A stretch of 64,000 nt of DNA, from NCBI GenBank assembly GCA_029582155.1, contig CM055908.1, forward strand, positions 17,421,352 to 17,485,351, in the 5' to 3' direction. The notes below the pieces were generated by a model. It was not told the DNA's origin, did not search any database, and saw nothing but the letters and a program-made list of their open reading frames with translations. Shown here in pieces: positions 14,246 through 59,054 of the stretch (position 1 is the stretch's first letter; the number at the start of each line of letters is the position of its first letter). This DNA comes from Panopea generosa. Lineage: Eukaryota; Mollusca; Bivalvia; Adapedonta; Hiatellidae. A program made the translations under genes and the position numbers.

Positions 14246-21934
<7,689 letters not shown>

Positions 21935-32024: not shown

Positions 32025-33935
32025 AGAACAAGTAACTACCAAACCACCACCCGCCCACAAGTAACTGTCGAACCACCAACCGCCCACAAGTAAATACTAA
32101 ACAACCACCTGCCCACAAGTAACTGTCAATCCACAACCCGCCCACAAGTAACTACCAAACCACCACCCGCCCACAAGTAACTGTCAAAACACCACCCGCA
32201 TAAAAGTAATTACCAAACCACCACCCGCCCACAATAGCTGTCAAACCACCACCCGCGAACCAGTAACTGTCAAACCCCCACCCGCCCACAAGTAACTGCC
32301 AAACCCCGCCCCCCCACAAGTAACTGCCAAACCCCATACGCCCACAAGTAACTGTCAACCCCCGCCCACCTACAAGTAAATATCAAACCACCACCCGCCC
32401 ACAAGTAACTGTCAAAACACCACCCGCATAATAGTATTCACCAAACCACCACCCGCCCACAAATAACTGTCAAACCACCACCCGCGAACCAGTAACTGTC
32501 AACCCCCACCCGCCCACAAGTAATTGTCAACCCCCCGCCTATACACAAGTAACTGCCAAACCACCACCCGCCAACAAGTAACTGTCAAACCACCACCACC
32601 TACCCACAAGTAAATACCAAACCACCACCCACCAAAAAGTAACTGTCAAACCACCACCGACCACAAGTAACGGTCAAACCCACACCCGCCCACAAGTAAC
32701 TACCGAACCACCACCCACCCACCCACCCACAAGTAACAACTAAACCACCACCCGCCCAAAATTCACTGCCGACCCCCCATCCGCCCACATGTAATTGTCA
32801 AAACACCACTCGCATACAAGTAATTACCAACGCACTACCCGCCCACAAATAACTGTCAACCCCCATCCGCCCACAAGTAACTGTCAAAAAAACAACACCC
32901 GCATACACGTAACTACCAAACCACCGCCGCCCACAAGTAACTGTCAAACTACCACCGCCATCAAGTAACTACCAAACCACCACTCGCCCACAAGTAACTG
33001 TCAAACTACCACCCGCCCACAAGTAACTGTCAAACTACCACCCGCCCTCAAGTAACTGTCAAACCACCACTCGCCCACAAGTAACTGTCAAACTACCACC
33101 CGCCCTCAAGTAACTGTCAAACTACCACCCGCCCACAAGTAACTGTCAAACTACCACCGCCAACAAGTAACTGTCAAACCCCCATACGCCCACAAGTAAC
33201 TGCCAAACCACCACCCGCCCACAAGTAACTGCCAAACTACCATCTGCCCACACGTATCGGCCAAACCACCACCCGTTATCAAGTAACTACCAAACCACCA
33301 CCCGCCCACAAGTAACTGTCAAACCACCACCCGCCATCAAGTAACTGCCAAACCATCACTTGCCCACAAGTAACTGTCAAACTACCACCCGCCCTCAAGT
33401 AACTGCCAAACCACCACCCGCCCACAAGTAACTGTCAAACTACCATCCGCCCACACGTATCTGCCAAACTACCACCCGCCCTCAAGTAACTACCAAACCA
33501 CCACCCGCCCACAATCAACTGCCAAACTACCACCCGCCCTCAAGTAACTACCAAACCACCACCCGCCCACAATCAACTGCCAAACAACCACCCGTCCACA
33601 AGTAACTGTCAAACCAACCCAGCCCACAAGTAACTGACAAACCACCATCCGCCCACAAGTAACTGTCAAACCACCACCCGCCATCAAGTAACTACCAAAC
33701 CACCCACCCTCATCAAGAAACTACCAAACCACCACCCGCCCACAAGTAACTGTCAAACCACCACCCGCCATCAAGTAACTACCAAACCACCACCTGCCCA
33801 CAAGTAACTGTCAAACTACCACCCGCCCTCAAGTAACTGCCAAACCATCACTCGCCCACAGTCAACTGCCAAACAACCACCCGTCCACAAATAACTGCCA
33901 AACCACCAGCCGCTCATAAGTTACTGCCAAATTAA
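32025..33935. repeat. ~29-bp C-rich minisatellite, roughly 65 units
   Basis: The consensus is CCACCACCCGCCCACAAG followed by TAACTGTCAAA. Variants alternate TAACTGTC/TAACTACC/TAACTGCC and CCCACAAG/CCCTCAAG/CATCAAG. Blocks of two variants alternate between about 33000 and 33800, suggesting a higher-order pattern. The + strand is almost free of G; the - strand has GGGCGGGTGGTGG in most units. Open frames across it (for example 33490-33687 on -) are periodic by-products of the near-multiple-of-three unit. Confidence 0.95.
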
Positions 33936-36453: not shown

Positions 36454-36764
36454 ACTTTGACAATACAAATCCCGATACTGATGACAGAATTCAATATATA
36501 TTCTTATAATTATATAATAATAATATGAAAAATATGTGTAACTCAACTTGCATTTTAACGACGATTCAAATATTAATTAAAAAATATGTCGAAGAACATG
36601 CGTCCAAACGTAATTGGTTTGTGGGTTAAGTTAAAGATTCAACAATTTTCAAAATTCTCTATTCAGTAATTTAACATATTACATTTGTCATTATATACAA
36701 ATTGGAATAATAAATATAACACATGGCACGCAAATAATGTCATAGAGAGATTTTGTTAATAATT

Positions 36765-37445
36765 GCTACAAATGATCAATATAACATGACGACGTGTCGC
36801 GCCTTAACCGAGCCTCCCACTTCAAAGGTCAAGGTCACAGTTTAACTTTGTTTGACGACACTCTCAGTCTGTGTGAGATCTCGTGTCTGATCTGTTACTT
36901 TGTCACCTATGGATGAATTTCAAAAACACTTGGCTCAAATACATCAGCATGACACGATGACGTGTCGGGCGTAAGACCCACACCCGTACCTCAAAGGTCA
37001 AGGTCCACTTTGAGTTTGTTTGACAACAATTTGAGTCTATGCGAGATTTCATGTCTTGTTCTTAACTTTGTCATACATGGATGGATTTCAAAAACATTTG
37101 ACTAAGTTGATAAACATGACATGATAAAGTGTCGCGTGTAAGACCCAGATCCTTTTCTCAAAGGTCAAGGCTATACTATCAATTAATTTGATATTTCTTG
37201 TCTGGCCTGTAGCTTTGTCTTTAACTTGGCTTAATTGAGCAAGATGACATGACGATGTGTCGCACGTAAGACCCAGACCCGTACCTAAAAGGTCAAGGTC
37301 ACACTATGAATTTGTTTGACCAACACTTTTGAGTCTGCTTGAGATTTCTGTAACTTTATCATACATGGATTGATTTCAAAAACACTTGTCTCAATTGATC
37401 CATTGATAAACATGACATGGTGATGTGTTACGTGCAAGACCCGCG
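36765..37445 (-). repeat. ~168-bp repeat array, four to five units, opposite orientation to the 22.6-kb array
   Basis: GGTCAAGGTCA or GGTCAAGGCT-type motifs lie at about 36827, 36996, 37163 and 37291. They are separated by GTTTGACGACACT, CACCTATGGATGAATTTCAA and AACATGACATGATAAAG-like segments, the reverse complements of the 22.6-kb array units. Confidence 0.85.
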
Positions 37446-37556
37446 TTTTTAAATAGTAGTTCACATTAACATTTCACTACAATTGAGGAAACAGTAAATT
37501 GATTAGGAAATTTTAGTACGAATGAACACATTAAACAGAAAACAAAGTATGGGGCA

Positions 37557-37560
<4 letters not shown>

Positions 37561-37592
<32 letters not shown>
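37561..37592. repeat. (AG)16 microsatellite
   Basis: Perfect dinucleotide run of 32 bp preceded by CAGCTG. Confidence 0.97.
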
Positions 37593-37594
<2 letters not shown>

Positions 37595-38859
37595 TAAATA
37601 TTTTATTTGTTTCACTTAAATAAATAGTTTAGCTGAAATAATATAACATATTTAGTTTCAGGCTTATGCATTTCGTAGACAGTTAGATACTAACGTTTCA
37701 TTTAACTAATATTTTATTAACCCCTGTGTTTCCCCTCTACCTGTTAAACTCTTTTGTTATTTAAATTATGTAACGTGTGAATCGATTGGTCAGGACACTT
37801 TATAACTCACCATCGCATATGACCGTTGTAGCCAAGAATTATTAATTGATAAACATATAAATAAACATTTAAACAACTATACTGATTATAACAGGTAAGA
37901 CTCACTATAAGATCAATTATGATATCTATATCTTCATAATGTAGTTTAAATCATCGTTCAATATTGTTTGATAAGGGTGTATTTTTTTGATAATTGTATA
38001 AACATATTCCATTTGAGTACCGGCGGCCATCTTTTATTTTATATTTGATTATGTGATGACCATCGTATATGACCATTGTAACAATGAATTGTTCATTCAT
38101 AAACTTATTAATACAATATCCATAGATAACCCAGTAAACAACCGGCAACACGAAGCTGTGGCGGTGGGGATCGAATATACCGGGGTCCAATGCTTTAAAT
38201 ACATCATATCATGCGATACACAATTACGTTCCTGTAGTGCGTGTTTTATTTCATATTTTCTGAAAAAAAACTTGATTTCTCCTTAAAATGAAATCATTTA
38301 TTTTATGTGCTATTGGATACTTTGTTTCGGCCCTGTTGTCTTGTATGCATTCAAGCATACGTTAGTAAATAGATGATCGACTTGTTAATATTTGTTAGTT
38401 CAACAATACCTCAGAATAGTTATCATATACATACAGAGTAAAAATTATTTACTGTTTGCGCTATTACATATTTTTGTGTTGATACGCCGTAAAACCCCAC
38501 ATCCATTCATTGTACGATTGACACTGATTAAAATACCCGTATTCATTGATCAAACGGGACCTGTCATGTTTAAGTTTTTTTTACCTTTTCGCGTTGAATT
38601 GGTCATTTTGGCGAGCAGTAACGGTACATAATTACCACATAATTATTCTTTTTAATGTTTCGAAACGTGTACCTATTGACGTTGCTCTATTTCGCACCTG
38701 CGTTTAATTTCTCTCGCACTTTTTCGTAAGCATACGAACAATACAAATCCGAACGACATGGCCAGAGTGAGCTGTTGTCAAGATTTCGATATACATATAA
38801 TCATAAGTTACTTGAACATACTATACTAATTTGGTGGATCTCTACAACTAGAATCACCA

Positions 38860-38960
38860 TGGTGCTATCTGCTGCTCGGTTCATCGTGGATGTGATGAAA
38901 GATGTGGCTGCTACTGGTACTGCTACTACTGTTGTGGTTGCTGCTGCTGTCTCCACGCGG
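38860..38960. repeat. GCT/ACT/GTT trinucleotide-rich stretch
   Basis: Degenerate triplet run (GTGGCTGCTACTGGTACTGC, then TACTACTGTTGTGG, then TTGCTGCTGCTGTC). A strong donor-like GAG|GTGAGT follows at about 39035, so a non-coding or 5' exon is conceivable, but no coding frame is convincing. Confidence 0.6.
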
Positions 38961-39108
38961 GACGTTTGATGGACGGTTTTGGTCGTCTTGTGGAGTTTGT
39001 GGTTTCCTGGTAACGCCCAGCAGAACTGCTTCTGAGGTGAGTTAAAACATGTTTAAATCATTTTTTTCATAATTGTTATGATAAATTAGCAATATTACAT
39101 TACCCGGA

Positions 39109-39308
39109 AGCCGGGCCCGGTAAGCTATCAGTCAAGGGGTCGAGAGTTCGAATCCCCGCCCGGCCATAGTTTCTGTGGTGATTTACTTGGGAAATTCAGT
39201 AGTTACTTGCGAAGGTGCGCGTGCTTGACTACTTGTTAATCTTCCAGACTCACAGGACAACGTTGTTAGGTTGACTGTATGGATTAGTCGTTGGATGGAT
39301 GGATTGAA
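39109..39308 (+). mobile_element. tRNA-derived SINE, family A, partly deleted head
   Basis: It has GGGCCCGGTAAGCTATCAGT, GGGGTCGAGAGTTCGAATCC (box B) and GCCCGGCC, then GTTACTTGCGAAGGTGCG and GTTAGGTTGACTGTATGG. The tail is (ATGG)n. Box A is largely deleted. Confidence 0.75.
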
Positions 39309-40470
39309 GGGCGAGCTTGCTTCCTGTTGAACGGACGAACGGATGTAATTCCATGTGAACGGTGGTACAGGCGGGTGGGCGGACGCACGGACAGAATATA
39401 CATTTTCAAGTGCATGTTTGTAATAGCATTAGGCATTTTATTTGACCTGTATTTATAGGCGTAGCATAGTTTCAGTTAACGGGGGAGGGGCAACCTGAGG
39501 AGTGGGAGATGGTGAGGGAGTTGGCCTCTCCATAAAATGTCGATATTTTGAACACCAAAGGCTGCGTCTTAGTGAGTGTTTATGATAAATTATGATTGAT
39601 ATTTCTCCGCAATATTTTGTGAGTTTTAAACGTTTTTAGCTCGACTATTCGTACTCGCCCCGGCGTCGGCATCGGTTTTTCCGGTTAAAGTTTACTAGCA
39701 GGAGCATTTTTCACCAACCTGTCATTGAATATATATGAATATATGAAATTTTATATTTGTGTTCAACATTATTAATGGAACGGACAGAGATAAGAACCAT
39801 AGCTCTGGGTTGCCTGTTGGCAGAATTATCGATAATTTGGTTAAAGTTTCGAGCAGGTGTATATTTCATCAAGCTATCATTGAATACGAATGAAACTTCA
39901 CATGTGTGTTCAACTCTTGTTAATTTGTATGCATTTCATTTAAATTCAAGATGTTTCATATAAAATCGTAATGTAGCAGGATTTTGCTTTCTACTATATC
40001 TAATCAACACGTTAATATGCACATTTTATATACTCGTTTGTGGCTGGGGAGTGCTAGGATTCGTTTTCAATTCAATGTCATTCTGAAATAGTTTTTGTTC
40101 AGTTTCATTTTAATGACAGTTTATATTTATACGATTCCAAATAGAATTCATTCCTTTATAATTTATCAGAAAACATTGTAGATTTTCATTTTAGAATAAG
40201 CAAATCTGCCGTGTGTAAATGAAACGACAATTTATCACAAAGTTAAAAACAGTTAGTCCTATTCAATATTCAAAGTCTAAAAATTCAATATTTTCTTAAA
40301 AAATACAAATATAAACTCGGTTGTTTACCTCCATATATGTGCCCATCTAGAAAATACGGGTTATCCTATATAAATTATAATGTAAAATTTAAAAACACAC
40401 TGACATTCAATGTTTATGTTAGCGAAATGCTACGTGTCTTATGACGTTGGTACTTTGACCTGGATTTTCT

Positions 40471-40504
40471 TGACGTCATACATGTCCTCATAGGTCTATA
40501 TAAG
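40471..40504 (+). promoter_or_regulatory. Candidate core promoter: CRE palindrome plus TATA box
   Basis: A perfect TGACGTCA (40471-40478) lies 18 bp before TATATAAG (40497-40504), with TTTGACCTGG shortly upstream and a GC-richer stretch after it. The spacing suits a TATA-driven start near 40530. No downstream coding sequence is recognised, so the transcript, if any, is unknown. Confidence 0.4.
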
Positions 40505-41514
40505 ACGGTCGAACTTACCTCCCCTTAGTGGCGGTAGCAAGATTATTGCGCCCAAGGAATTAGAGCTTCGTAAATCGGTTGGGCATTATTTTTGTTGAAA
40601 ATGCCTTAATGGTCATATTATTTTGTACATGATTATGAAAACATTGGAACATTTTCACGAGTTTTGCCAAGTTTAGATGGCATTGGGTACTCTTTGGTGA
40701 AAACATAACAGTTTAAAGATGCGTAGTAATACACTGCAACACATGGGCAGATTTTCAAAAATGAAAAGATGTCACCAAAACATCGAAATTGTAAAAAAAA
40801 AATCTGGTCAACCGCATGTATTTCCCTGCATATTAGGTCTAACAAAGGAAAATATATGGAAACAATACACTTGAAAACCATTGTAATCACTGTACCAGAA
40901 GTGCATGTCTCTGTACGTATATAACAGTACAAAATTAATTGGTGTATCAGACATCCAAATAGAACAAAAAACATGATTTCCCTGATAATTTCTGATCAAA
41001 CAATCCCACTGTTTATAATTCAAACAAAATTAAATGCTTTTTAACACATTGATATAACTTATATTCTCCAATTTATTTTTATGTTTTTGGAGTGATTTGG
41101 AGGTGTGTTTTTTTCAATTGGCCCACAAAAAGCGCATACAATCTTATCACGGGTGAGATATCACAATGGGTACCCTTTGTGACATCTGCTGCATATGATT
41201 TGAGCCAATGACATCACCAAGAGCTACACAGTGGGAAGAGAGTGACCTCAGCACTCGAGAGGTCATATTATTCTGCAAAAGTAGGTCTTTGTCTTTATGC
41301 GGATATCGGCTATTATTTCTACATTACTTTTCATCCAATGCTTATGTTCAAGTTTTATTTCAAGCATCAGGAGGACAATTATTTAGAGGTGATCCGGCAG
41401 CTTTGGTTCATTCAGCGTGTGAGTATGATGACAGCGACGGTAGGAAGACGGGGGCGAGGTGCGGGTACGTCGTCCATATTTTTGCCATATTGCATTTTCA
41501 AACACAAGGTGGAC

Positions 41515-41578
41515 GCGCAATGCATTGTCTTTTGTCGCGTTGTTTAATTGTTTAATTGTTTATTGTAACAATCTACTT
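41515..41578 (+). repeat. Diverged fragment related to the 776-bp satellite
   Basis: GCAATGCATTGTCTTTTGTC then GCGTTGTTTAATTG and TTATTGTAACAATCTACT align with the satellite's TCAATGCATTGTCTTTCGTC, GCCGTAATTG and TTCTTGTAACATTCTGCACT. It lies about 350 bp before the array. Confidence 0.6.
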
Positions 41579-41925
41579 TTTGGGAAGCTCACGGAAAGTG
41601 TGTCAATGGAGGGGGCCGTCGTTTTTGTTTGCTTGTTTTCATGAAGGCTGTCATTCGTACAATAAGCTCCAACAATTTGATATACATACACAAGGCCCAG
41701 TGTATCTCGTACATGTGCGCCTCTGAACGCAAGCGCACAATTCATACTTAAGGTGTCTTTGAGTATAATAGTTAGGACAGGGTCAAATACTGGGCCGTGT
41801 TGAACCTGTCATGATTATCACACCTCCTGTTTAAAGTCGTCTTCTGCACCGCTGACGGCGTCCGCAATTCCAGTATTTAAGTAATACAGACGTTACAACG
41901 TTATGGGAGCACAGAATCAAGATGA

Positions 41926-44900
41926 ATGTCTCTCCATTTCTGTTCATATGTACGTATCACACCTGTGTACGTATCGCACCTGATAAGGATCGCAGCAGGC
42001 AGAGCTAGGCCGGCAGTTGTGGCCCTTGGATTTAGTGTTTGACGTTGTGTGGATCTCAAGTAGATATGTTGCAATCGCGTTTCGCATTCTATCGTGTGTT
42101 GTTTATTTAAAACATGTATGTATAATTGTGTAACACTACTTCTCCGTGTATTGTGTTCTTTATATTTACATGTTCGAGACGATCAGTCGACGAGCCGAGC
42201 CGCGGTGGATTGGTGGAGAAGCAGAGAGCGACTTGGTCTGTTTCCGGAGCAGAGGGTTTCGTGATTGTAAAGAAACAGGTCCGTATTCTATCTCTTTACA
42301 AGTATCGCGCTTTAAGTCGACATTGCATGATTGCAAAGTCAATGCATTGTCTTTCGTCGCCGTAATTGTTTCTTGTAACATTCTGCACTTAGTGATGATC
42401 CCACAGCGAGCGTGATTGATGGAGAATGTGACCTAGCGCCTGCTTGCCCCTATGACGGTGAAGTTCCCCATACTGGTACTGTAGGTTCTGTAGATTTTCG
42501 AGTCATAATGTAACGCACAGTTGATGTTAAGGGCGGTGTACGTGTAATCCTTTGGGCCAGGATTGTGCGTGTGTCGATTAGTTGCCACTAGTTGGTAGTT
42601 CTGCCAACTAGTTTCATTTCATTTCATTTCATTTCATTTCATTTCATTTCATGTTCATTAGGGGAGCGCTTAAGAGTAGTAGCTAGATTTGTGCGTTACG
42701 TATGTCTCTCCATTTCTGTTCATATGTACGTATCACACCTGTGTACGTATCGCACCTGATAAGGATCGCAGCAGGCAGAGCTAGGCCGGCAGTTGTGGCC
42801 CTTGGATTTAGTGTTTGACGTTGTGTGGATCTCAAGTAGATATGTTGCAATCGCGTTTCGCATTCTATCGTGTGTTGTTTATTTAAAACATGTATGTATA
42901 ATTGTGTAACACTACTTCTCCGTGTATTGTGTTCTTTATATTTACATGTTCGAGACGATCAGTCGACGAGCCGAGCCGCGGTGGATTGGTGGAGAAGCAG
43001 AGAGCGACTTGGTCTGTTTCCGGAGCAGAGGGTTTCGTGATTGTAAAGAAACAGGTCCGTATTCTATCTCTTTACAAGTATCGCGCTTTAAGTCGACATT
43101 GCATGATTGCAAAGTCAATGCATTGTCTTTCGTCGCCGTAATTGTTTCTTGTAACATTCTGCACTTAGTGATGATCCCACAGCGAGCGTGATTGATGGAG
43201 AATGTGACCTAGCGCCTGCTTGCCCCTATGACGGTGAAGTTCCCCATACTGGTACTGTAGGTTCTGTAGATTTTCGAGTCATAATGTAACGCACAGTTGA
43301 TGTTAAGGGCGGTGTACGTGTAATCCTTTGGGCCAGGATTGTGCGTGTGTCGATTAGTTGCCACTAGTTGGTAGTTCTGCCAACTAGTTTCATTTCATTT
43401 CATTTCATTTCATTTCATTTCATTTCATGTTCATTAGGGGAGCGCTTAAGAGTAGTAGCTAGATTTGTGCGTTACGTATGTCTCTCCATTTCTGTTCATA
43501 TGTACGTATCACACCTGTGTACGTATCGCACCTGATAAGGATCGCAGCAGGCAGAGCTAGGCCGGCAGTTGTGGCCCTTGGATTTAGTGTTTGACGTTGT
43601 GTGGATCTCAAGTAGATATGTTGCAATCGCGTTTCGCATTCTATCGTGTGTTGTTTATTTAAAACATGTATGTATAATTGTGTAACACTACTTCTCCGTG
43701 TATTGTGTTCTTTATATTTACATGTTCGAGACGATCAGTCGACGAGCCGAGCCGCGGTGGATTGGTGGAGAAGCAGAGAGCGACTTGGTCTGTTTCCGGA
43801 GCAGAGGGTTTCGTGATTGTAAAGAAACAGGTCCGTATTCTATCTCTTTACAAGTATCGCGCTTTAAGTCGACATTGCATGATTGCAAAGTCAATGCATT
43901 GTCTTTCGTCGCCGTAATTGTTTCTTGTAACATTCTGCACTTAGTGATGATCCCACAGCGAGCGTGATTGATGGAGAATGTGACCTAGCGCCTGCTTGCC
44001 CCTATGACGGTGAAGTTCCCCATACTGGTACTGTAGGTTCTGTAGATTTTCGAGTCATAATGTAACGCACAGTTGATGTTAAGGGCGGTGTACGTGTAAT
44101 CCTTTGGGCCAGGATTGTGCGTGTGTCGATTAGTTGCCACTAGTTGGTAGTTCTGCCAACTAGTTTCATTTCATTTCATTTCATTTCATTTCATTTCATT
44201 TCATGTTCATTAGGGGAGCGCTTAAGAGTAGTAGCTAGATTTGTGCGTTACGTATGTCTCTCCATTTCTGTTCATATGTACGTATCACACCTGTGTACGT
44301 ATCGCACCTGATAAGGATCGCAGCAGGCAGAGCTAGGCCGGCAGTTGTGGCCCTTGGATTTAGTGTTTGACGTTGTGTGGATCTCAAGTAGATATGTTGC
44401 AATCGCGTTTCGCATTCTATCGTGTGTTGTTTATTTAAAACATGTATGTATAATTGTGTAACACTACTTCTCCGTGTATTGTGTTCTTTATATTTACATG
44501 TTCGAGACGATCAGTCGACGAGCCGAGCCGCGGTGGATTGGTGGAGAAGCAGAGAGCGACTTGGTCTGTTTCCGGAGCAGAGGGTTTCGTGATTGTAAAG
44601 AAACAGGTCCGTATTCTATCTCTTTACAAGTATCGCGCTTTAAGTCGACATTGCATGATTGCAAAGTCAATGCATTGTCTTTCGTCGCCGTAATTGTTTC
44701 TTGTAACATTCTGCACTTAGTGATGATCCCACAGCGAGCGTGATTGATGGAGAATGTGACCTAGCGCCTGCTTGCCCCTATGACGGTGAAGTTCCCCATA
44801 CTGGTACTGTAGGTTCTGTAGATTTTCGAGTCATAATGTAACGCACAGTTGATGTTAAGGGCGGTGTACGTGTAATCCTTTGGGCCAGGATTGTGCGTGT

Positions 44901-47900
44901 GTCGATTAGTTGCCACTAGTTGGTAGTTCTGCCAACTAGTTTCATTTCATTTCATTTCATTTCATTTCATTTCATTTCATGTTCATTAGGGGAGCGCTTA
45001 AGAGTAGTAGCTAGATTTGTGCGTTACGTATGTCTCTCCATTTCTGTTCATATGTACGTATCACACCTGTGTACGTATCGCACCTGATAAGGATCGCAGC
45101 AGGCAGAGCTAGGCCGGCAGTTGTGGCCCTTGGATTTAGTGTTTGACGTTGTGTGGATCTCAAGTAGATATGTTGCAATCGCGTTTCGCATTCTATCGTG
45201 TGTTGTTTATTTAAAACATGTATGTATAATTGTGTAACACTACTTCTCCGTGTATTGTGTTCTTTATATTTACATGTTCGAGACGATCAGTCGACGAGCC
45301 GAGCCGCGGTGGATTGGTGGAGAAGCAGAGAGCGACTTGGTCTGTTTCCGGAGCAGAGGGTTTCGTGATTGTAAAGAAACAGGTCCGTATTCTATCTCTT
45401 TACAAGTATCGCGCTTTAAGTCGACATTGCATGATTGCAAAGTCAATGCATTGTCTTTCGTCGCCGTAATTGTTTCTTGTAACATTCTGCACTTAGTGAT
45501 GATCCCACAGCGAGCGTGATTGATGGAGAATGTGACCTAGCGCCTGCTTGCCCCTATGACGGTGAAGTTCCCCATACTGGTACTGTAGGTTCTGTAGATT
45601 TTCGAGTCATAATGTAACGCACAGTTGATGTTAAGGGCGGTGTACGTGTAATCCTTTGGGCCAGGATTGTGCGTGTGTCGATTAGTTGCCACTAGTTGGT
45701 AGTTCTGCCAACTAGTTTCATTTCATTTCATTTCATTTCATTTCATTTCATTTCATGTTCATTAGGGGAGCGCTTAAGAGTAGTAGCTAGATTTGTGCGT
45801 TACGTATGTCTCTCCATTTCTGTTCATATGTACGTATCACACCTGTGTACGTATCGCACCTGATAAGGATCGCAGCAGGCAGAGCTAGGCCGGCAGTTGT
45901 GGCCCTTGGATTTAGTGTTTGACGTTGTGTGGATCTCAAGTAGATATGTTGCAATCGCGTTTCGCATTCTATCGTGTGTTGTTTATTTAAAACATGTATG
46001 TATAATTGTGTAACACTACTTCTCCGTGTATTGTGTTCTTTATATTTACATGTTCGAGACGATCAGTCGACGAGCCGAGCCGCGGTGGATTGGTGGAGAA
46101 GCAGAGAGCGACTTGGTCTGTTTCCGGAGCAGAGGGTTTCGTGATTGTAAAGAAACAGGTCCGTATTCTATCTCTTTACAAGTATCGCGCTTTAAGTCGA
46201 CATTGCATGATTGCAAAGTCAATGCATTGTCTTTCGTCGCCGTAATTGTTTCTTGTAACATTCTGCACTTAGTGATGATCCCACAGCGAGCGTGATTGAT
46301 GGAGAATGTGACCTAGCGCCTGCTTGCCCCTATGACGGTGAAGTTCCCCATACTGGTACTGTAGGTTCTGTAGATTTTCGAGTCATAATGTAACGCACAG
46401 TTGATGTTAAGGGCGGTGTACGTGTAATCCTTTGGGCCAGGATTGTGCGTGTGTCGATTAGTTGCCACTAGTTGGTAGTTCTGCCAACTAGTTTCATTTC
46501 ATTTCATTTCATTTCATTTCATTTCATTTCATGTTCATTAGGGGAGCGCTTAAGAGTAGTAGCTAGATTTGTGCGTTACGTATGTCTCTCCATTTCTGTT
46601 CATATGTACGTATCACACCTGTGTACGTATCGCACCTGATAAGGATCGCAGCAGGCAGAGCTAGGCCGGCAGTTGTGGCCCTTGGATTTAGTGTTTGACG
46701 TTGTGTGGATCTCAAGTAGATATGTTGCAATCGCGTTTCGCATTCTATCGTGTGTTGTTTATTTAAAACATGTATGTATAATTGTGTAACACTACTTCTC
46801 CGTGTATTGTGTTCTTTATATTTACATGTTCGAGACGATCAGTCGACGAGCCGAGCCGCGGTGGATTGGTGGAGAAGCAGAGAGCGACTTGGTCTGTTTC
46901 CGGAGCAGAGGGTTTCGTGATTGTAAAGAAACAGGTCCGTATTCTATCTCTTTACAAGTATCGCGCTTTAAGTCGACATTGCATGATTGCAAAGTCAATG
47001 CATTGTCTTTCGTCGCCGTAATTGTTTCTTGTAACATTCTGCACTTAGTGATGATCCCACAGCGAGCGTGATTGATGGAGAATGTGACCTAGCGCCTGCT
47101 TGCCCCTATGACGGTGAAGTTCCCCATACTGGTACTGTAGGTTCTGTAGATTTTCGAGTCATAATGTAACGCACAGTTGATGTTAAGGGCGGTGTACGTG
47201 TAATCCTTTGGGCCAGGATTGTGCGTGTGTCGATTAGTTGCCACTAGTTGGTAGTTCTGCCAACTAGTTTCATTTCATTTCATTTCATTTCATTTCATTT
47301 CATTTCATGTTCATTAGGGGAGCGCTTAAGAGTAGTAGCTAGATTTGTGCGTTACGTATGTCTCTCCATTTCTGTTCATATGTACGTATCACACCTGTGT
47401 ACGTATCGCACCTGATAAGGATCGCAGCAGGCAGAGCTAGGCCGGCAGTTGTGGCCCTTGGATTTAGTGTTTGACGTTGTGTGGATCTCAAGTAGATATG
47501 TTGCAATCGCGTTTCGCATTCTATCGTGTGTTGTTTATTTAAAACATGTATGTATAATTGTGTAACACTACTTCTCCGTGTATTGTGTTCTTTATATTTA
47601 CATGTTCGAGACGATCAGTCGACGAGCCGAGCCGCGGTGGATTGGTGGAGAAGCAGAGAGCGACTTGGTCTGTTTCCGGAGCAGAGGGTTTCGTGATTGT
47701 AAAGAAACAGGTCCGTATTCTATCTCTTTACAAGTATCGCGCTTTAAGTCGACATTGCATGATTGCAAAGTCAATGCATTGTCTTTCGTCGCCGTAATTG
47801 TTTCTTGTAACATTCTGCACTTAGTGATGATCCCACAGCGAGCGTGATTGATGGAGAATGTGACCTAGCGCCTGCTTGCCCCTATGACGGTGAAGTTCCC

Positions 47901-50900
47901 CATACTGGTACTGTAGGTTCTGTAGATTTTCGAGTCATAATGTAACGCACAGTTGATGTTAAGGGCGGTGTACGTGTAATCCTTTGGGCCAGGATTGTGC
48001 GTGTGTCGATTAGTTGCCACTAGTTGGTAGTTCTGCCAACTAGTTTCATTTCATTTCATTTCATTTCATTTCATTTCATTTCATGTTCATTAGGGGAGCG
48101 CTTAAGAGTAGTAGCTAGATTTGTGCGTTACGTATGTCTCTCCATTTCTGTTCATATGTACGTATCACACCTGTGTACGTATCGCACCTGATAAGGATCG
48201 CAGCAGGCAGAGCTAGGCCGGCAGTTGTGGCCCTTGGATTTAGTGTTTGACGTTGTGTGGATCTCAAGTAGATATGTTGCAATCGCGTTTCGCATTCTAT
48301 CGTGTGTTGTTTATTTAAAACATGTATGTATAATTGTGTAACACTACTTCTCCGTGTATTGTGTTCTTTATATTTACATGTTCGAGACGATCAGTCGACG
48401 AGCCGAGCCGCGGTGGATTGGTGGAGAAGCAGAGAGCGACTTGGTCTGTTTCCGGAGCAGAGGGTTTCGTGATTGTAAAGAAACAGGTCCGTATTCTATC
48501 TCTTTACAAGTATCGCGCTTTAAGTCGACATTGCATGATTGCAAAGTCAATGCATTGTCTTTCGTCGCCGTAATTGTTTCTTGTAACATTCTGCACTTAG
48601 TGATGATCCCACAGCGAGCGTGATTGATGGAGAATGTGACCTAGCGCCTGCTTGCCCCTATGACGGTGAAGTTCCCCATACTGGTACTGTAGGTTCTGTA
48701 GATTTTCGAGTCATAATGTAACGCACAGTTGATGTTAAGGGCGGTGTACGTGTAATCCTTTGGGCCAGGATTGTGCGTGTGTCGATTAGTTGCCACTAGT
48801 TGGTAGTTCTGCCAACTAGTTTCATTTCATTTCATTTCATTTCATTTCATTTCATTTCATGTTCATTAGGGGAGCGCTTAAGAGTAGTAGCTAGATTTGT
48901 GCGTTACGTATGTCTCTCCATTTCTGTTCATATGTACGTATCACACCTGTGTACGTATCGCACCTGATAAGGATCGCAGCAGGCAGAGCTAGGCCGGCAG
49001 TTGTGGCCCTTGGATTTAGTGTTTGACGTTGTGTGGATCTCAAGTAGATATGTTGCAATCGCGTTTCGCATTCTATCGTGTGTTGTTTATTTAAAACATG
49101 TATGTATAATTGTGTAACACTACTTCTCCGTGTATTGTGTTCTTTATATTTACATGTTCGAGACGATCAGTCGACGAGCCGAGCCGCGGTGGATTGGTGG
49201 AGAAGCAGAGAGCGACTTGGTCTGTTTCCGGAGCAGAGGGTTTCGTGATTGTAAAGAAACAGGTCCGTATTCTATCTCTTTACAAGTATCGCGCTTTAAG
49301 TCGACATTGCATGATTGCAAAGTCAATGCATTGTCTTTCGTCGCCGTAATTGTTTCTTGTAACATTCTGCACTTAGTGATGATCCCACAGCGAGCGTGAT
49401 TGATGGAGAATGTGACCTAGCGCCTGCTTGCCCCTATGACGGTGAAGTTCCCCATACTGGTACTGTAGGTTCTGTAGATTTTCGAGTCATAATGTAACGC
49501 ACAGTTGATGTTAAGGGCGGTGTACGTGTAATCCTTTGGGCCAGGATTGTGCGTGTGTCGATTAGTTGCCACTAGTTGGTAGTTCTGCCAACTAGTTTCA
49601 TTTCATTTCATTTCATTTCATTTCATTTCATTTCATGTTCATTAGGGGAGCGCTTAAGAGTAGTAGCTAGATTTGTGCGTTACGTATGTCTCTCCATTTC
49701 TGTTCATATGTACGTATCACACCTGTGTACGTATCGCACCTGATAAGGATCGCAGCAGGCAGAGCTAGGCCGGCAGTTGTGGCCCTTGGATTTAGTGTTT
49801 GACGTTGTGTGGATCTCAAGTAGATATGTTGCAATCGCGTTTCGCATTCTATCGTGTGTTGTTTATTTAAAACATGTATGTATAATTGTGTAACACTACT
49901 TCTCCGTGTATTGTGTTCTTTATATTTACATGTTCGAGACGATCAGTCGACGAGCCGAGCCGCGGTGGATTGGTGGAGAAGCAGAGAGCGACTTGGTCTG
50001 TTTCCGGAGCAGAGGGTTTCGTGATTGTAAAGAAACAGGTCCGTATTCTATCTCTTTACAAGTATCGCGCTTTAAGTCGACATTGCATGATTGCAAAGTC
50101 AATGCATTGTCTTTCGTCGCCGTAATTGTTTCTTGTAACATTCTGCACTTAGTGATGATCCCACAGCGAGCGTGATTGATGGAGAATGTGACCTAGCGCC
50201 TGCTTGCCCCTATGACGGTGAAGTTCCCCATACTGGTACTGTAGGTTCTGTAGATTTTCGAGTCATAATGTAACGCACAGTTGATGTTAAGGGCGGTGTA
50301 CGTGTAATCCTTTGGGCCAGGATTGTGCGTGTGTCGATTAGTTGCCACTAGTTGGTAGTTCTGCCAACTAGTTTCATTTCATTTCATTTCATTTCATTTC
50401 ATTTCATTTCATGTTCATTAGGGGAGCGCTTAAGAGTAGTAGCTAGATTTGTGCGTTACGTATGTCTCTCCATTTCTGTTCATATGTACGTATCACACCT
50501 GTGTACGTATCGCACCTGATAAGGATCGCAGCAGGCAGAGCTAGGCCGGCAGTTGTGGCCCTTGGATTTAGTGTTTGACGTTGTGTGGATCTCAAGTAGA
50601 TATGTTGCAATCGCGTTTCGCATTCTATCGTGTGTTGTTTATTTAAAACATGTATGTATAATTGTGTAACACTACTTCTCCGTGTATTGTGTTCTTTATA
50701 TTTACATGTTCGAGACGATCAGTCGACGAGCCGAGCCGCGGTGGATTGGTGGAGAAGCAGAGAGCGACTTGGTCTGTTTCCGGAGCAGAGGGTTTCGTGA
50801 TTGTAAAGAAACAGGTCCGTATTCTATCTCTTTACAAGTATCGCGCTTTAAGTCGACATTGCATGATTGCAAAGTCAATGCATTGTCTTTCGTCGCCGTA

Positions 50901-51237
50901 ATTGTTTCTTGTAACATTCTGCACTTAGTGATGATCCCACAGCGAGCGTGATTGATGGAGAATGTGACCTAGCGCCTGCTTGCCCCTATGACGGTGAAGT
51001 TCCCCATACTGGTACTGTAGGTTCTGTAGATTTTCGAGTCATAATGTAACGCACAGTTGATGTTAAGGGCGGTGTACGTGTAATCCTTTGGGCCAGGATT
51101 GTGCGTGTGTCGATTAGTTGCCACTAGTTGGTAGTTCTGCCAACTAGTTTCATTTCATTTCATTTCATTTCATTTCATTTCATTTCATGTTCATTAGGGG
51201 AGCGCTTAAGAGTAGTAGCTAGATTTGTGCGTTACGT
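41926..51237 (+). repeat. Satellite subfamily A: 12 units reading as identical
   Basis: Twelve consecutive 776-bp units show no difference that I can find by reading. Diagnostic states are CGGCAGTTGTGGCC, GCGACTTGGTCTG, ATGTGACCTAGCG, TTCCCCATACTGG and CATTAGGGGAGCG, with eight TTTCA copies. Confidence 0.9.
42587..42652 (+). repeat. Hairpin and (TTTCA)8 module of the satellite, first unit
   Basis: The 9-bp stem ACTAGTTGG (42587-42595) pairs with CCAACTAGT (42604-42612) across the loop TAGTTCTG, immediately followed by eight TTTCA copies. It recurs once per unit. Confidence 0.9.
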
Positions 51238-54200
51238 ATGTCTCTCCATTTCTGTTCATATGTACGTATCACACCTGTGTACGTATCGCACCTGATAAGG
51301 ATCGCAGCAGGCAGAGCTAGGCCGGCAGATTGTGGCCCTTGGATTTAGTGTTTGACGTTGTGTGGATCTCAAGTAGATATGTTGCAATCGCGTTTCGCAT
51401 TCTATCGTGTGTTGTTTATTTAAAACATGTATGTATAATTGTGTAACACTACTTCTCCGTGTATTGTGTTCTTTATATTTACATGTTCGAGACGATCAGT
51501 CGACGAGCCGAGCCGCGGTGGATTGGTGGAGAAGCAGAGAGCGACTTCGGTCTGTTTCCGGAGCAGAGGGTTTCGTGATTGTAAAGAAACAGGTCCGTAT
51601 TCTATCTCTTTACAAGTATCGCGCTTTAAGTCGACATTGCATGATTGCAAAGTCAATGCATTGTCTTTCGTCGCCGTAATTGTTTCTTGTAACATTCTGC
51701 ACTTAGTGATGATCCCACAGCGAGCGTGATTGATGGAGAATGTGACCTAGCGCCTGCTTGCCCCTATGACGGTGAAGTTCCCCATACTGGTACTGTAGGT
51801 TCTGTAGATTTTCGAGTCATAATGTAACGCACAGTTGATGTTAAGGGCGGTGTACGTGTAATCCTTTGGGCCAGGATTGTGCGTGTGTCGATTAGTTGCC
51901 ACTAGTTGGTAGTTCTGCCAACTAGTTTCATTTCATTTCATTTCATTTCATTTCATTTCATTTCATGTTCATTATGGGAGCGCTTAAGAGTAGTAGCTAG
52001 ATTTGTGCGTTACGTATGTCTCTCCATTTCTGTTCATATGTACGTATCACACCTGTGTACGTATCGCACCTGATAAGGATCGCAGCAGGCAGAGCTAGGC
52101 CGGCAGATTGTGGCCCTTGGATTTAGTGTTTGACGTTGTGTGGATCTCAAGTAGATATGTTGCAATCGCGTTTCGCATTCTATCGTGTGTTGTTTATTTA
52201 AAACATGTATGTATAATTGTGTAACACTACTTCTCCGTGTATTGTGTTCTTTATATTTACATGTTCGAGACGATCAGTCGACGAGCCGAGCCGCGGTGGA
52301 TTGGTGGATAAGCAGAGAGCGACTTCGTCTGTTTCCGGAGCAGAGGGTGTCGTGATTGTAAAGAAACAGGTCCGTATTCTATCTCTTTAAAAGTATCGCG
52401 CTTTAAGTCGACATTGCATGATTGCAAAGTCAATGCATTGTCTTTCGTCGCCGTAATTGTTTCTTGTAACATTCTGCACTTAGTGATGATCCCACAGCAG
52501 CGTGATTGATGGAGAATGTGGCCTAGCGCCTGCTTGCTCCTATGACGGTGAAGTTCCCATTCTGGTACTGTAGGTTCTGTAGATTTTCGAGTCATAATGT
52601 AAACGCACAGTTGATGTTAAGGGCGGTGTACGTGTAATCCTTTGGGCCAGGATTGTGCGTGTGTCGATTAGTTGCCACTAGTTGGTAGTTCTGCCAACTA
52701 TTTTTTCATTTCATTTCATTTCATTTCATTTCATTTCATGTTCATTATGGGAGCGCTTAAGAGTAGTAGCTAGATTTGTGCGTTACGTATGTCTCTCCAT
52801 TTCTGTTCATATGTACGTATCACACCTGTGTACGTATCGCACCTGATAAGGATCGCAGCAGGCAGAGCTAGGCCGGCAGATGTGGCCCTTGGATTTAGTG
52901 TTTGACGTTGTGTGGATCTCAAGTAGATATGTTGCAATCGCGTTTCGCATTCTATCGTGTGTTGTTTATTTAAAACATGTATGTATAATTGTGTAACACT
53001 ACTTCTCCGTGTATTGTGTTCTTTATATTTACATGTTCGAGACGATCAGTCGACGAGCCGAGCCGCGGTGGATTGGTGGAGAAGCAGAGAGCGACTTCGT
53101 CTGTTTCCGGAGCAGAGGGTTTCGTGATTGTAAAGAAACAGGTCCGTATTCTATCTCTTTACAAGTATCGCGCTTTAAGTCGACATTGCATGATTGCAAA
53201 GTCAATGCATTGTCTTTCGTCGCCGTAATTGTTTCTTGTAACATTCTGCACTTAGTGATGATCCCACAGCGAGCGTGATTGATGGAGAATGTGGCCTAGC
53301 GCCTGCTTGCCCCTATGACGGTGAAGTTCCCATTACTGGTACTGTAGGTTCTGTAGATTTTCGAGTCATAATGTAACGCACAGTTGATGTTAAGGGCGGT
53401 GTACGTGTAATCCTTTGGGCCAGGATTGTGCGTGTGTCGATTAGTTGCCACTAGTTGGTAGTTCTGCCAACTATTTTTCATTTCATTCATTTCATTTCAT
53501 TTCATTTCATTTCATGTTCATTATGGGAGCGCTTAAGAGTAGTAGCTAGATTTGTGCGTTACGTATGTCTCTCCATTTCTGTTCATATGTACGTATCACA
53601 CCTGTGTACGTATCGCACCTGATAAGGATCGCAGCAGGCAGAGCTAGGCCGGCAGATGTGGCCCTTGGATTTAGTGTTTGACGTTGTGTGGATCTCAAGT
53701 AGATATGTTGCAATCGCGTTTCGCATTCTATCGTGTGTTGTTTATTTAAAACATGTATGTATAATTGTGTAACACTACTTCTCCGTGTATTGTGTTCTTT
53801 ATATTTACATGTTCGAGACGATCAGTCGACGAGCCGAGCCGCGGTGGATTGGTGGAGAAGCAGAGAGCGACTTCGTCTGTTTCCGGAGCAGAGGGTTTCG
53901 TGATTGTAAAGAAACAGGTCCGTATTCTATCTCTTTACAAGTATCGCGCTTTAAGTCGACATTGCATGATTGCAAAGTCAATGCATTGTCTTTCGTCGCC
54001 GTAATTGTTTCTTGTAACATTCTGCACTTAGTGATGATCCCACAGCGAGCGTGATTGATGGAGAATGTGGCCTAGCGCCTGCTTGCCCCTATGACGGTGA
54101 AGTTCCCATTACTGGTACTGTAGGTTCTGTAGATTTTCGAGTCATAATGTAACGCACAGTTGATGTTAAGGGCGGTGTACGTGTAATCCTTTGGGCCAGG

Positions 54201-57200
54201 ATTGTGCGTGTGTCGATTAGTTGCCACTAGTTGGTAGTTCTGCCAACTATTTTTTTTCCATTTCATTTCATTTCATTTCATTTCATTTCATGTTCATTAT
54301 GGGAGCGCTTAAGAGTAGTAGCTAGATTTGTGCGTTACGTATGTCTCTCCATTTCTGTTCATATGTACGTATCACACCTGTGTACGTATCGCACCTGATA
54401 AGGATCGCAGCAGGCAGAGCTAGGCCGGCAGATGTGGCCCTTGGATTTAGTGTTTGACGTTGTGTGGATCTCAAGTAGATATGTTGCAATCGCGTTTCGC
54501 ATTCTATCGTGTGTTGTTTATTTAAAACATGTATGTATAATTGTGTAACACTACTTCTCCGTGTATTGTGTTCTTTATATTTACATGTTCGAGACGATCA
54601 GTCGACGAGCCGAGCCGCGGTGGATTGGTGGAGAAGCAGAGAGCGACTTCGTCTGTTTCCGGAGCAGAGGGTTTCGTGATTGTAAAGAAACAGGTCCGTA
54701 TTCTATCTCTTTACAAGTATCGCGCTTTAAGTCGACATTGCATGATTGCAAAGTCAATGCATTGTCTTTCGTCGCCGTAATTGTTTCTTGTAACATTCTG
54801 CACTTAGTGATGATCCCACAGCGAGCGTGATTGATGGAGAATGTGGCCTAGCGCCTGCTTGCCCCTATGACGGTGAAGCTTCCCATTACTGGTACTGTAG
54901 GTTCTGTAGATTTTCGAGTCATAATGTAACGCACAGTTGATGTTAAGGGCGGTGTACGTGTAATCCTTTGGGCCAGGATTGTGCGTGTGTCGATTAGTTG
55001 CCTACTAGTTGGTAGCTTCTGCCAACTATTTTTTTTCCATTTCATTTCATTTCATTTCATTTCATTTCATGTTCATTATGGGAGCGCTTAAGAGTAGTAG
55101 CTAGATTTGTGCGTTACGTATGTCTCTCCATTTCTGTTCATATGTACGTATCACACCTGTGTACGTATCGCACCTGATAAGGATCGCAGCAGGCAGAGCT
55201 AGGCCGGCAGATGTGGCCCTTGGATTTAGTGTTTGACGTTGTGTGGATCTCAAGTAGATATGTTGCAATCGCGTTTCGCATTCTATCGTGTGTTGTTTAT
55301 TTAAAACATGTATGTATAATTGTGTAACACTACTTCTCCGTGTATTGTGTTCTTTATATTTACATGTTCGAGACGATCAGTCGACGAGCCGAGCCGCGGT
55401 GGATTGGTGGAGAAGCAGAGAGCGACTTCGTCTGTTTCCGGAGCAGAGGGTTTCGTGATTGTAAAGAAACAGGTCCGTATTCTATCTCTTTACAAGTATC
55501 GCGCTTTAAGTCGACATTGCATGATTGCAAAGTCAATGCATTGTCTTTCGTCGCCGTAATTGTTTCTTGTAACATTCTGCACTTAGTGATGATCCCACAG
55601 CGAGCGTGATTGATGGAGAATGTGGCCTAGCGCCTGCTTGCCCCTATGACGGTGAAGCTCCCATTACTGGTACTGTAGGTTCTGTAGATTTTCGAGTCAT
55701 AATGTAACGCACAGTTGATGTTAAGGGCGGTGTACGTGTAATCCTTTGGGCCAGGATTGTGCGTGTGTCGATTAGTTGCCTACTAGTTGGTAGCTCTGCC
55801 AACTAATTTTTTTTTCCATTTCATTTCATTTCATTTCATTTCATGTTCATTATGGGAGCGCTTAAGAGTAGTAGCTAGATTTGTGCGTTACGTATGTCTC
55901 TCCATTTCTGTTCATATGTACGTATCACACCTGTGTACGTATCGCACCTGATAAGGATCGCAGCAGGCAGAGCTAGGCCGGCAGATGTGGCCCTTGGATT
56001 TAGTGTTTGACGTTGTGTGGATCTCAAGTAGATATGTTGCAATCGCGTTTCGCATTCTATCGTGTGTTGTTTATTTAAAACATGTATGTATAATTGTGTA
56101 ACACTACTTCTCCGTGTATTGTGTTCTTTATATTTACATGTTCGAGACGATCAGTCGACGAGCCGAGCCGCGGTGGATTGGTGGAGAAGCAGAGAGCGAC
56201 TTCGTCTGTTTCCGGAGCAGAGGGTTTCGTGATTGTAAAGAAACAGGTCCGTATTCTATCTCTTTACAAGTATCGCGCTTTAAGTCGACATTGCATGATT
56301 GCAAAGTCAATGCATTGTCTTTCGTCGCCGTAATTGTTTCTTGTAACATTCTGCACTTAGTGATGATCCCACAGCGAGCGTGATTGATGGAGAATGTGGC
56401 CTAGCGCCTGCTTGCCCCTATGACGGTGAAGCTCCCATTACTGGTACTGTAGGTTCTGTAGATTTTCGAGTCATAATGTAACGCACAGTTGATGTTAAGG
56501 GCGGTGTACGTGTAATCCTTTGGGCCAGGATTGTGCGTGTGTCGATTAGTTGCCTCTAGTTGGTAGCTCTGCCAACTAATTTTTTTTCCATTTCATTTCA
56601 TTTCATTTCATTTCATTTCATGTTCATTATGGGAGCGCTTAAGAGTAGTAGCTAGATTTGTGCGTTACGTATGTCTCTCCATTTCTGTTCATATGTACGT
56701 ATCACACCTGTGTACGTATCGCACCTGATAAGGATCGCAGCAGGCAGAGCTAGGCCGGCAGATGTGGCCCTTGGATTTAGTGTTTGACGTTGTGTGGATC
56801 TCAAGTAGATATGTTGCAATCGCGTTTCGCATTCTATCGTGTGTTGTTTATTTAAAACATGTATGTATAATTGTGTAACACTACTTCTCCGTGTATTGTG
56901 TTCTTTATATTTACATGTTCGAGACGATCAGTCGACGAGCCGAGCCGCGGTGGATTGGTGGAGAAGCAGAGAGCGACTTCGTCTGTTTCCGGAGCAGAGG
57001 GTTTCGTGATTGTAAAGAAACAGGTCCGTATTCTATCTCTTTACAAGTATCGCGCTTTAAGTCGACATTGCATGATTGCAAAGTCAATGCATTGTCTTTC
57101 GTCGCCGTAATTGTTTCTTGTAACATTCTGCACTTAGTGATGATCCCACAGCGAGCGTGATTGATGGAGAATGTGGCCTAGCGCCTGCTTGCCCCTATGA

Positions 57201-58554
57201 CGGTGAAGCTCCCATTACTGGTACTGTAGGTTCTGTAGATTTTCGAGTCATAATGTAACGCACAGTTGATGTTAAGGGCGGTGTACGTGTAATCCTTTGG
57301 GCCAGGATTGTGCGTGTGTCGATTAGTTGCCTCTAGTTGGTAGCTCTGCCAACTATTTTTTTTTCCATTTCATTTCATTTCATTTCATTTCATGTTCATT
57401 ATGGGAGCGCTTAAGAGTAGTAGCTAGATTTGTGCGTTACGTATGTCTCTCCATTTCTGTTCATATGTACGTATCACACCTGTGTACGTATCGCACCTGA
57501 TAAGGATCGCAGCAGGCAGAGCTAGGCCGGCAGATGTGGCCCTTGGATTTAGTGTTTGACGTTGTGTGGATCTCAAGTAGATATGTTGCAATCGCGTTTC
57601 GCATTCTATCGTGTGTTGTTTATTTAAAACATGTATGTATAATTGTGTAACACTACTTCTCCGTGTATTGTGTTCTTTATATTTACATGTTCGAGACGAT
57701 CAGTCGACGAGCCGAGCCGCGGTGGATTGGTGGAGAAGCAGAGAGCGACTTCGTCTGTTTCCGGAGCAGAGGGTTTCGTGATTGTAAAGAAACAGGTCCG
57801 TATTCTATCTCTTTACAAGTATCGCGCTTTAAGTCGACATTGCATGATTGCAAAGTCAATGCATTGTCTTTCGTCGCCGTAATTGTTTCTTGTAACATTC
57901 TGCACTTAGTGATGATCCCACAGCGAGCGTGATTGATGGAGAATGTGGCCTAGCGCCTGCTTGCCCCTATGACGGTGAAGCTCCCATACTGGTACTGTAG
58001 GTTCTGTAGATTTTCGAGTCATAATGTAACGCACAGTTGATGTTAAGGGCGGTGTACGTGTAATCCTTTGGGCCAGGATTGTGCGTGTGTCGATTAGTTG
58101 CCTCTAGTTGGTAGCTCTGCCAACTATTTTTTTTTCCATTTCATTTCATTTCATTTCATTTCATGTTCATTATGGGAGCGCTTAAGAGTAGTAGCTAGAT
58201 TTGTGCGTTACGTATGTCTCTCCATTTCTGTTCATATGTGCGTATCACACCTGTGTACGTATCGCACCTGATAAGGATCGCAGCAGGCAGAGCTAGGCCG
58301 GCAGATGTGGCCCTTGGATTTAGTGTTTGACGTTGTGTGGATCTCAAGTAGATATGTTGCAATCGCGTTTCGCATTCTATCGTGTGTTGTTTATTTAAAA
58401 CATGTATGTATAATTGTGTAACACTACTTCTCCGTGTATTGTGTTCTTTATATTTACATGTTCGAGACGATCAGTCGACGAGCCGAGCCGCTGTGGATTG
58501 GTGGAGAAGCAGAGAGCGACTTCGTCTGTTTCCGAAGCAGAGGGTTCGTGATGT
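51238..58554 (+). repeat. Satellite subfamily B: diverged units (772-779 bp)
   Basis: Changes accumulate stepwise from the 13th unit: CGGCAGATTGTGGCC (units 13-14) then CGGCAGATGTGGCC; ACTTCGGTCTG then ACTTCGTCTG; ATGTGGCCTAGCG; TTCCCATTACTGG then GCTCCCATTACTGG; CATTATGGGAGCG. A poly-T run precedes a shortened TTTCA tract. The hairpin keeps its 7-bp core (TAGTTGG/CCAACTA) while outer pairs are lost. Confidence 0.9.
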
Positions 58555-59054
58555 NNNNNNNNNNNNNNNNNNNNNNNNNNNNNNNNNNNNNNNNNNNNNN
58601 NNNNNNNNNNNNNNNNNNNNNNNNNNNNNNNNNNNNNNNNNNNNNNNNNNNNNNNNNNNNNNNNNNNNNNNNNNNNNNNNNNNNNNNNNNNNNNNNNNNN
58701 NNNNNNNNNNNNNNNNNNNNNNNNNNNNNNNNNNNNNNNNNNNNNNNNNNNNNNNNNNNNNNNNNNNNNNNNNNNNNNNNNNNNNNNNNNNNNNNNNNNN
58801 NNNNNNNNNNNNNNNNNNNNNNNNNNNNNNNNNNNNNNNNNNNNNNNNNNNNNNNNNNNNNNNNNNNNNNNNNNNNNNNNNNNNNNNNNNNNNNNNNNNN
58901 NNNNNNNNNNNNNNNNNNNNNNNNNNNNNNNNNNNNNNNNNNNNNNNNNNNNNNNNNNNNNNNNNNNNNNNNNNNNNNNNNNNNNNNNNNNNNNNNNNNN
59001 NNNNNNNNNNNNNNNNNNNNNNNNNNNNNNNNNNNNNNNNNNNNNNNNNNNNNN
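58555..59054. other. Assembly gap of exactly 500 N
   Basis: The round length marks a placeholder of unknown true size. It interrupts the satellite array at 341 bp into a unit. Any reading frame crossing it is an artefact. Confidence 0.99.

Follow-up and report, generated by a model that had tools for sequence, protein, structure and literature searches.

In the geoduck Panopea generosa (1.47-Gb genome, 39 contigs) a 64,000-nucleotide stretch, C15:17421352-17485351, hereafter called the window, contains a head-to-tail array in which a run of letter-identical 776-bp units passes by small steps into a second type of unit. This raises the question of whether the gradient records the history of a satellite or was generated by the assembly of its reads. 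The array occupies 41926-58554 and consists of 21 complete units plus a fragment of 342 bp, 21.4 units in all. It and its left flank are made up of the following features, in which a union denotes both bases of a variable site standing side by side:

39200..41463, + strand: body common to seven other array loci, which are 95-100% identical to the window per 300-bp bin at 39.5 kb and beyond
41464..41925, + strand: 'unit 0', related to the unit but diverged, with 77-83% identity to 788-bp tandem units at C12:30.57-30.58 Mb
41926..51236, + strand: units 1-12, 776 bp each, letter-identical, the first base of unit 1 being that of the flank
43363..43388, + strand: stem-loop of unit 2 with a perfect 9-bp stem, ACTAGTTGG...CCAACTAGT, abutting a (TTTCA)n microsatellite
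51237..52787, + strand: units 13-14, 'intermediate', with the union AT at site 93 in both and CG at site 311 in unit 13
52788..58212, + strand: units 15-21, second type (A93, C311, T737), with unions at sites 540 (unit 17), 663 (units 17 and 18) and 675 (unit 17)
58213..58554, + strand: unit 22, 342 bp, cut by the gap
58555..59054, no strand: 500-N scaffold gap, beyond which lies the right end of the array

At a lag of 776 the letters match without exception over 41926-50552 and so repeat unchanged from 41926 to 51328, a point inside unit 13. The initial annotation had described units 1-12 as identical at 776 bp, with substitutions and short indels accumulating stepwise from unit 13, and both descriptions hold: the steps are present, and units 13-21 span 771-779 bp (778, 773, 776, 776, 779, 774, 777, 772 and 771 bp, respectively). 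The gap on the right, the unions at five of the steps and the relatives at other genomic loci are additions to that description. The microsatellite is 48 bp long throughout units 1-12 and varies in length in later ones, and the stem-loop site is present in all other whole units, with base changes beginning at unit 14. The fragment at the gap carries three private substitutions and, relative to the other units, two 1-base homopolymer losses in its final bases, which would fit a poor contig end. The longest period admitted by TRF was 500, and hence it reported for the array only short internal repeats. An internal 194-bp sub-repeat (776 = 4 x 194) was considered and was not supported, as lag counts peak at the microsatellite alone; alignments between quarters that retained the microsatellite reached a score of 123, compared with at most 118 among 60 single-base shuffles.

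Coding by the unit was rejected, as two of its frames matched no family in a Pfam scan; the longest N-free stop-to-stop frame within the array is 119 aa, and the satellite unit shows no sign of coding. A known RNA gene was likewise rejected, since Rfam at the gathering score and a tRNA scan returned 0 matches and 0 tRNAs in the window (the best weak Rfam match to the unit has an E of 2.1), in agreement with the earlier remark that the unit resembles no rDNA, snRNA or tRNA repeat. The same absence of an Rfam match, together with fold z-scores of -1.68 and -1.35 (20 shuffles each), makes it very improbable that the unit encodes, as a tandem gene, a structured RNA of a new kind, for which one might cite its CpG observed/expected ratio (1.11, versus 0.54 in the remainder of the window, where G+C is 34% versus 44% in the unit), a core that it has in common with unit 0, and an AT strand skew reached by 5 of 115 other windows. 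The promoter and terminator scan used bacterial consensus sequences and is uninformative here. A plasmid or phage origin was rejected, the unit having no match among plasmid or phage sequences, and an exact core pattern, one for each collection, was absent from viral_contigs and genome_contigs. A 776-bp satellite was not found in the literature among the matches listed.

Searching the genome with the unit gave at least 30 matches, in a search that scored 4 of 62 candidates and from whose list the window's own array was absent. Unit relatives were fetched from eight other loci on four other contigs (C5, C9, C12 and C14):

C9:61.55 Mb (C9a): units fetched
C9:71.61 Mb (C9b): gapless array with non-array sequence on either side
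C12:23.52 Mb (C12): array that likewise stops at 500 N
C5:61.03 Mb (C5): units fetched
C14:67.82 Mb (C14): fetched in part
C9:57.71 Mb (C9c): fetched in part
C12:13.04 Mb (C12e): fetched in part
C5:60.92 Mb (C5e): fetched in part

These arrays are homogeneous to differing degrees. The 11 full units of C9b comprise 6 identical ones, 3 with a single substitution and 2 with changes at four or five positions, and at C14 all three full units are identical; relative to an own-locus reference unit, the other four full units of C9a differ at 4-6 positions, two units of C9c at 4 and 10, and one unit of C12 at 5. The mean distance is 0.42% within loci (132 pairs) and 1.59% between them (609 pairs), a contrast equalled in 0 of 1000 label shuffles, although this count comes from 39 complete or almost complete units (including 11 of the 21 in the window) that are related to one another and is not a strict probability. 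The within-locus distance is itself uneven, reaching 0.79% in C9a, and in the window units 1-12 stand 1.02% apart from units 15-21. The first type lies 0.87% from C9c and 1.66% from C9b, the second 0.81% and 0.88%, respectively, and in a tree units 18-21 cluster with C9b with modest support. As the two types are separated by at least the distance to some other loci, the window does not hold one homogenised array, and its second type may derive from elsewhere. The local homogenisation suggested in the initial annotation is nonetheless real, though uneven: it is clearest at C9b, also seen at C14 and weaker at C9a and C9c, and units are on average nearer to those of their own locus. A run of 12 identical units is credible for this satellite family, if not proven.

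The array is head-to-tail and non-coding, its units are more alike within arrays than between them, and it recurs at several genomic loci, so the locus is a new instance of an ordinary dispersed satellite with a long unit. Monomers of comparable length are among those described for the oyster satellitome, such as CgiSat05 (811 bp), CgiSat18 (731 bp) and CgiSat22 (743 bp) (PMC8268682). Going by published descriptions, the oyster satellites are similar in unit length, in moderate copy number and in scattered or local arrays, and one array of CgiSat01 also contains an assembly gap, whereas the 44% G+C of the window's unit is above that of most satellites listed there (PMC8268682).

The gradient itself can be resolved into individual sites. 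Outside the microsatellite seven single-base sites change state along the array (93, 311, 507, 540, 663, 675 and 737); a two-base difference at 545-546 also steps, with a partial reversion in unit 21. Five of these seven steps pass through a unit, or two, in which both bases stand side by side, with a gain of 1 bp:

Site 93: T, then AT in units 13 and 14, then A
Site 311: G, then CG in unit 13, then C
Site 540: T, then CT in unit 17, then C
Site 663: A, then TA in units 17 and 18, then T
Site 675: T, then CT in unit 17, then C

The steps at 507 and 737 are clean, with no union. Unit 17 differs from unit 20, outside the microsatellite, solely by three extra bases. One-base insertions occur at six sites, with unit positions 686-735 (the microsatellite and its edge) set aside, and five of the six are unions, the sixth, in unit 14, being an additional A at 587; when insertions are modelled crudely as random, with events entered by hand and mutation bias ignored, at least five such coincidences have a probability of about 5e-12. 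The string CGGCAGATTGTGG, which had been reported for units 13-14, is present there as described.

None of the five union strings occurs in the 37 whole or partial units from the eight other loci, not every one of which covers every site, or in any of 39 fetched loci, some of them overlapping. Elsewhere site 93 is A in all 36 covering units, site 311 is C in 34 of 34 and site 540 is C in 33 of 33; site 737 is T in all covering units except C9c_2, which has G, and sites 507, 663 and 675 are variable among loci. T93 and G311 of units 1-12 are thus private among the fetched loci, and G737 is not. Two oddities of unit 14 recur at other loci, T294 in both units of C5e and the additional A at 587 in six units.

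Taken together, these observations lead us to propose that the locus is probably one array of a dispersed satellite of about 776 bp, present in two types, and that its graded units represent a blended consensus. Unequal exchange or gene conversion among neighbours would keep such arrays more or less homogeneous, a mechanism suggested by the observed pattern of distances. The first type (T93, G311) fills units 1-12; to its right comes the second, which resembles more closely the state of other loci and the array at C9:71.6 Mb, and the assembly halts at the gap while still inside the array. Noisy reads of both types, possibly of other arrays too, may have piled onto the same units, and the consensus would then have kept both bases at several of the differing sites, giving rise to units 13, 14, 17 and 18. 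We read the graded units in this way because alleles with both bases stand at the steps and are absent from the fetched units of other loci. Our confidence is lowered by the finding that G737 is not private and that the distance between the window's two types matches that between some loci; also weighing against blending are the union at 663 and the missing one at 737 (both taken up below), the clean steps at 507 and 737, and the real variants in unit 14.

The same evidence bears on a wholly biological history, in which recent amplification of one unit made 12 identical copies and units 13-18 arose as genuine intermediates, whether by evolution or by recombination. Other arrays do show identical or near-identical runs, and variants of unit 14 are found at other loci; however, such a history needs both alleles to have become adjacent at five sites, each at a step and in no fetched unit elsewhere, which makes it decidedly unlikely. 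The claim that units 13-14 are evolutionary intermediates finds no support: they carry both alleles adjacent, as units 17-18 do at three further sites, and no unit from another locus does so. Side-by-side alleles at step sites could serve as a cheap sign, available from an assembly alone, of a blended 'gradient' between satellite subfamilies.

Blending was also simulated in simplified form, with noisy reads of both unit types mixed and a consensus taken by column vote. With a first-type backbone and indel-only alignment unions arose at 93, 311, 540, 675 and 737, for the most part when 70-85% of the reads were of the second type. When mismatches were allowed in the alignment there were 0 unions at any site, and with a second-type backbone hardly any arose (1 of 30, at site 507 under one setting), many of the outcomes being unclassified sequences of other kinds. 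The simulation agrees with the array at 93, 311, 540 and 675, and at 507, where neither has a union, and so reproduces four of the five observed unions; it disagrees at 663, where a union is observed yet unpredicted, and at 737, where one is predicted yet absent. Canu, which may not be the program used here, corrects reads by Myers O(ND) alignments and a path through a DAG (PMC5411767). A comparable difficulty is documented for the human X, where the near-identical units of DXZ1 and other large repeats caused ambiguous read placement and lowered polishing quality (PMC7484160); there unique markers corrected the array, whereas the window retains two adjacent alleles.

A stronger form of the assembly argument would make the 12 identical units themselves a consensus repeated by the assembler, the real domain of the first type being shorter or longer and the second type perhaps a misjoined array. 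The absence of any difference over 9.3 kb, microsatellite included, the gap that cuts the array, and the likely blended consensus in the adjoining units all favour such a view, as does the second type being closer to C9b (0.88%) and C9c (0.81%) than the 1.02% that parts it from the first. Against it, the 3 of 3 identical units at C14 and the 6 of 11 in the gapless C9b array indicate that near-identity is usual in parts of the family, and C9b retains single-base variants too. The initial annotation had named an assembly product as its alternative; for the graded part the union alleles make this likely, and for the 12 identical units we regard it as possible but doubtful.

Returning to the preferred reading of a dispersed satellite, we find that the unit has a diverged relative at the left edge of the array. 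Unit 0 matches successive units of the 788-bp array on C12. Its 21-base core (41518-41538) shares 20 of its 21 bases with the 776-bp unit, and the wider core, 41518-41578, aligns to unit positions 416-466 with a score of 53, against 33 for the largest of 300 shuffles. Full-length collinearity of flank and unit beyond the core does not reach significance alone (z about 1.1 on either side) and is supported solely through the tandem relatives of unit 0 elsewhere, the sister 788-bp unit aligning with the 776-bp unit at a score of 109 against 31 for the largest of 100 shuffles. The sister satellite (L034, C12:30574000-30578600) has units of 788 bp with 49% G+C, an internal CGATACG and 13-bp repeats; among four units compared two are identical, a third departs from them by 1 and the fourth by 7-8. 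At 41925/41926 the window's junction is short of about 114 bp that C12, C14 and C9c possess, and C12e, C5e, C9a and C9b have array junctions of other kinds. As the junctions differ among loci, the array edge appears to have been repeatedly rearranged.

The body to the left of unit 0 is present at C9a (from 40541 only), C9b, C12, C14, C9c, C12e and C5e (fetched from about 39970), with an identity of 93-100% per 300-bp bin in all locus pairs from 39.5 kb on. Eight loci, window included, thus carry it upstream of their array, and a body copy of 83% identity stands upstream of the C12 sister array with about 4 kb between them. Its segment 40541-41379 is dispersed, with at least 42 matches on many contigs (40 of 3122 first-look candidates scored). 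This raises the possibility that body and tandem units make up a mobile element, with the array as one end, which has spread copies of itself through the genome, reminiscent of the arrays borne by Helentrons in bivalves. Like those of Cg_HINE, the array stands beside a common left module and is associated with a microsatellite and, adjoining it, a palindrome; in the description of Cg_HINE, however, the palindrome belongs to a conserved right module and the microsatellite to the left flank (PMC7492417), and the monomers there measure 160-180 bp rather than 776 bp. In the window both palindrome and microsatellite are within the units. The common left module is present except at C5, where the units occur without the body, and comparison of the right flanks of C9a, C9b and C5 (the right ends of C12 and the window lie behind gaps) revealed no common module, with or without a palindrome, directly beside the array. 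Further, the homology of C12, C14, C9c and C12e extends, with breaks, to the fetched ends about 7 kb upstream, which would fit segmental duplication too, and Pfam, at its cut-offs, recognised neither a transposase nor a replicase domain in the 13 ORFs scanned. The mobile-element reading accordingly deserves serious attention, but we lean against it.

In the same right flanks, the one sequence common to C5 and C9a is a tandem repeat of about 170 bp that lies over 1.7 kb from the array, and a few collinear matches link C12 beyond its gap with C9b about 18 kb beyond its array. An open frame of 136 aa at L039:1711-2118 (minus strand), which we take by eye to resemble a fragment of a Tc1/mariner transposase, has no Pfam match at cut-off.

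The dispersed satellite and its left flank may also have moved together. Over 37.7-39.2 kb the identity of the window to C12, C14, C9c and C12e is 84-91% per 300-bp bin, and these four are 95-100% like each other throughout from 37.7 kb. A paralogue at C9b (C9:71.57-71.61 Mb) covers most of 1-41925 and reaches the array on both contigs; most of the left 42 kb is in common at about 95% (87-98% per 1.5-kb bin), identity rises to 98.6% beside the array, and 37315-39106 is missing in C9b. It is conceivable, though rather unlikely, that arrays exchange between chromosomes with their left flank and not their right, in a manner akin to break-induced replication, with the window as recipient: a broken end would invade the homologous left flank and then copy through the array. 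The role of recipient is suggested by the jump in the window's identity from 84-91% to 95-100% between 39.5 kb and the array, and likewise by the rise towards the array in the comparison with C9b. The nine array loci, eight of them with the common left flank, the sister array and the identity step near 39.2 kb together constitute a natural test of how homogenisation acts within a locus and between chromosomes.

Several other features were observed in the window. At 39108-39170 there is a tRNA-like head with A- and B-box-like motifs discerned by eye, in which ARAGORN finds no tRNA and which is probably the head of a SINE; 15054-15112 is 85% like 39125-39183, and about 100-130 bp around the head are missing from C14 and C9c. 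The region 37901-39700 is not depleted of CpG (observed/expected 1.1-1.8 in five of six 300-bp bins and 0.64 in the other), has a GTGAGT donor-like site, identified by eye, near 39037, and is perhaps a transcribed unit. Tandem repeats of about 168 bp at 22765-24361 and 36741-37442 belong to one family in opposite orientation, which recurs near C9a. A 64-bp minisatellite occupies 10088-10674 (9.2 copies; a 319-bp period was detected as well), and a 29-bp minisatellite of 65.6 copies at 32028-33931 shows extreme strand bias, with a GC skew of -0.63 at 32-34 kb.
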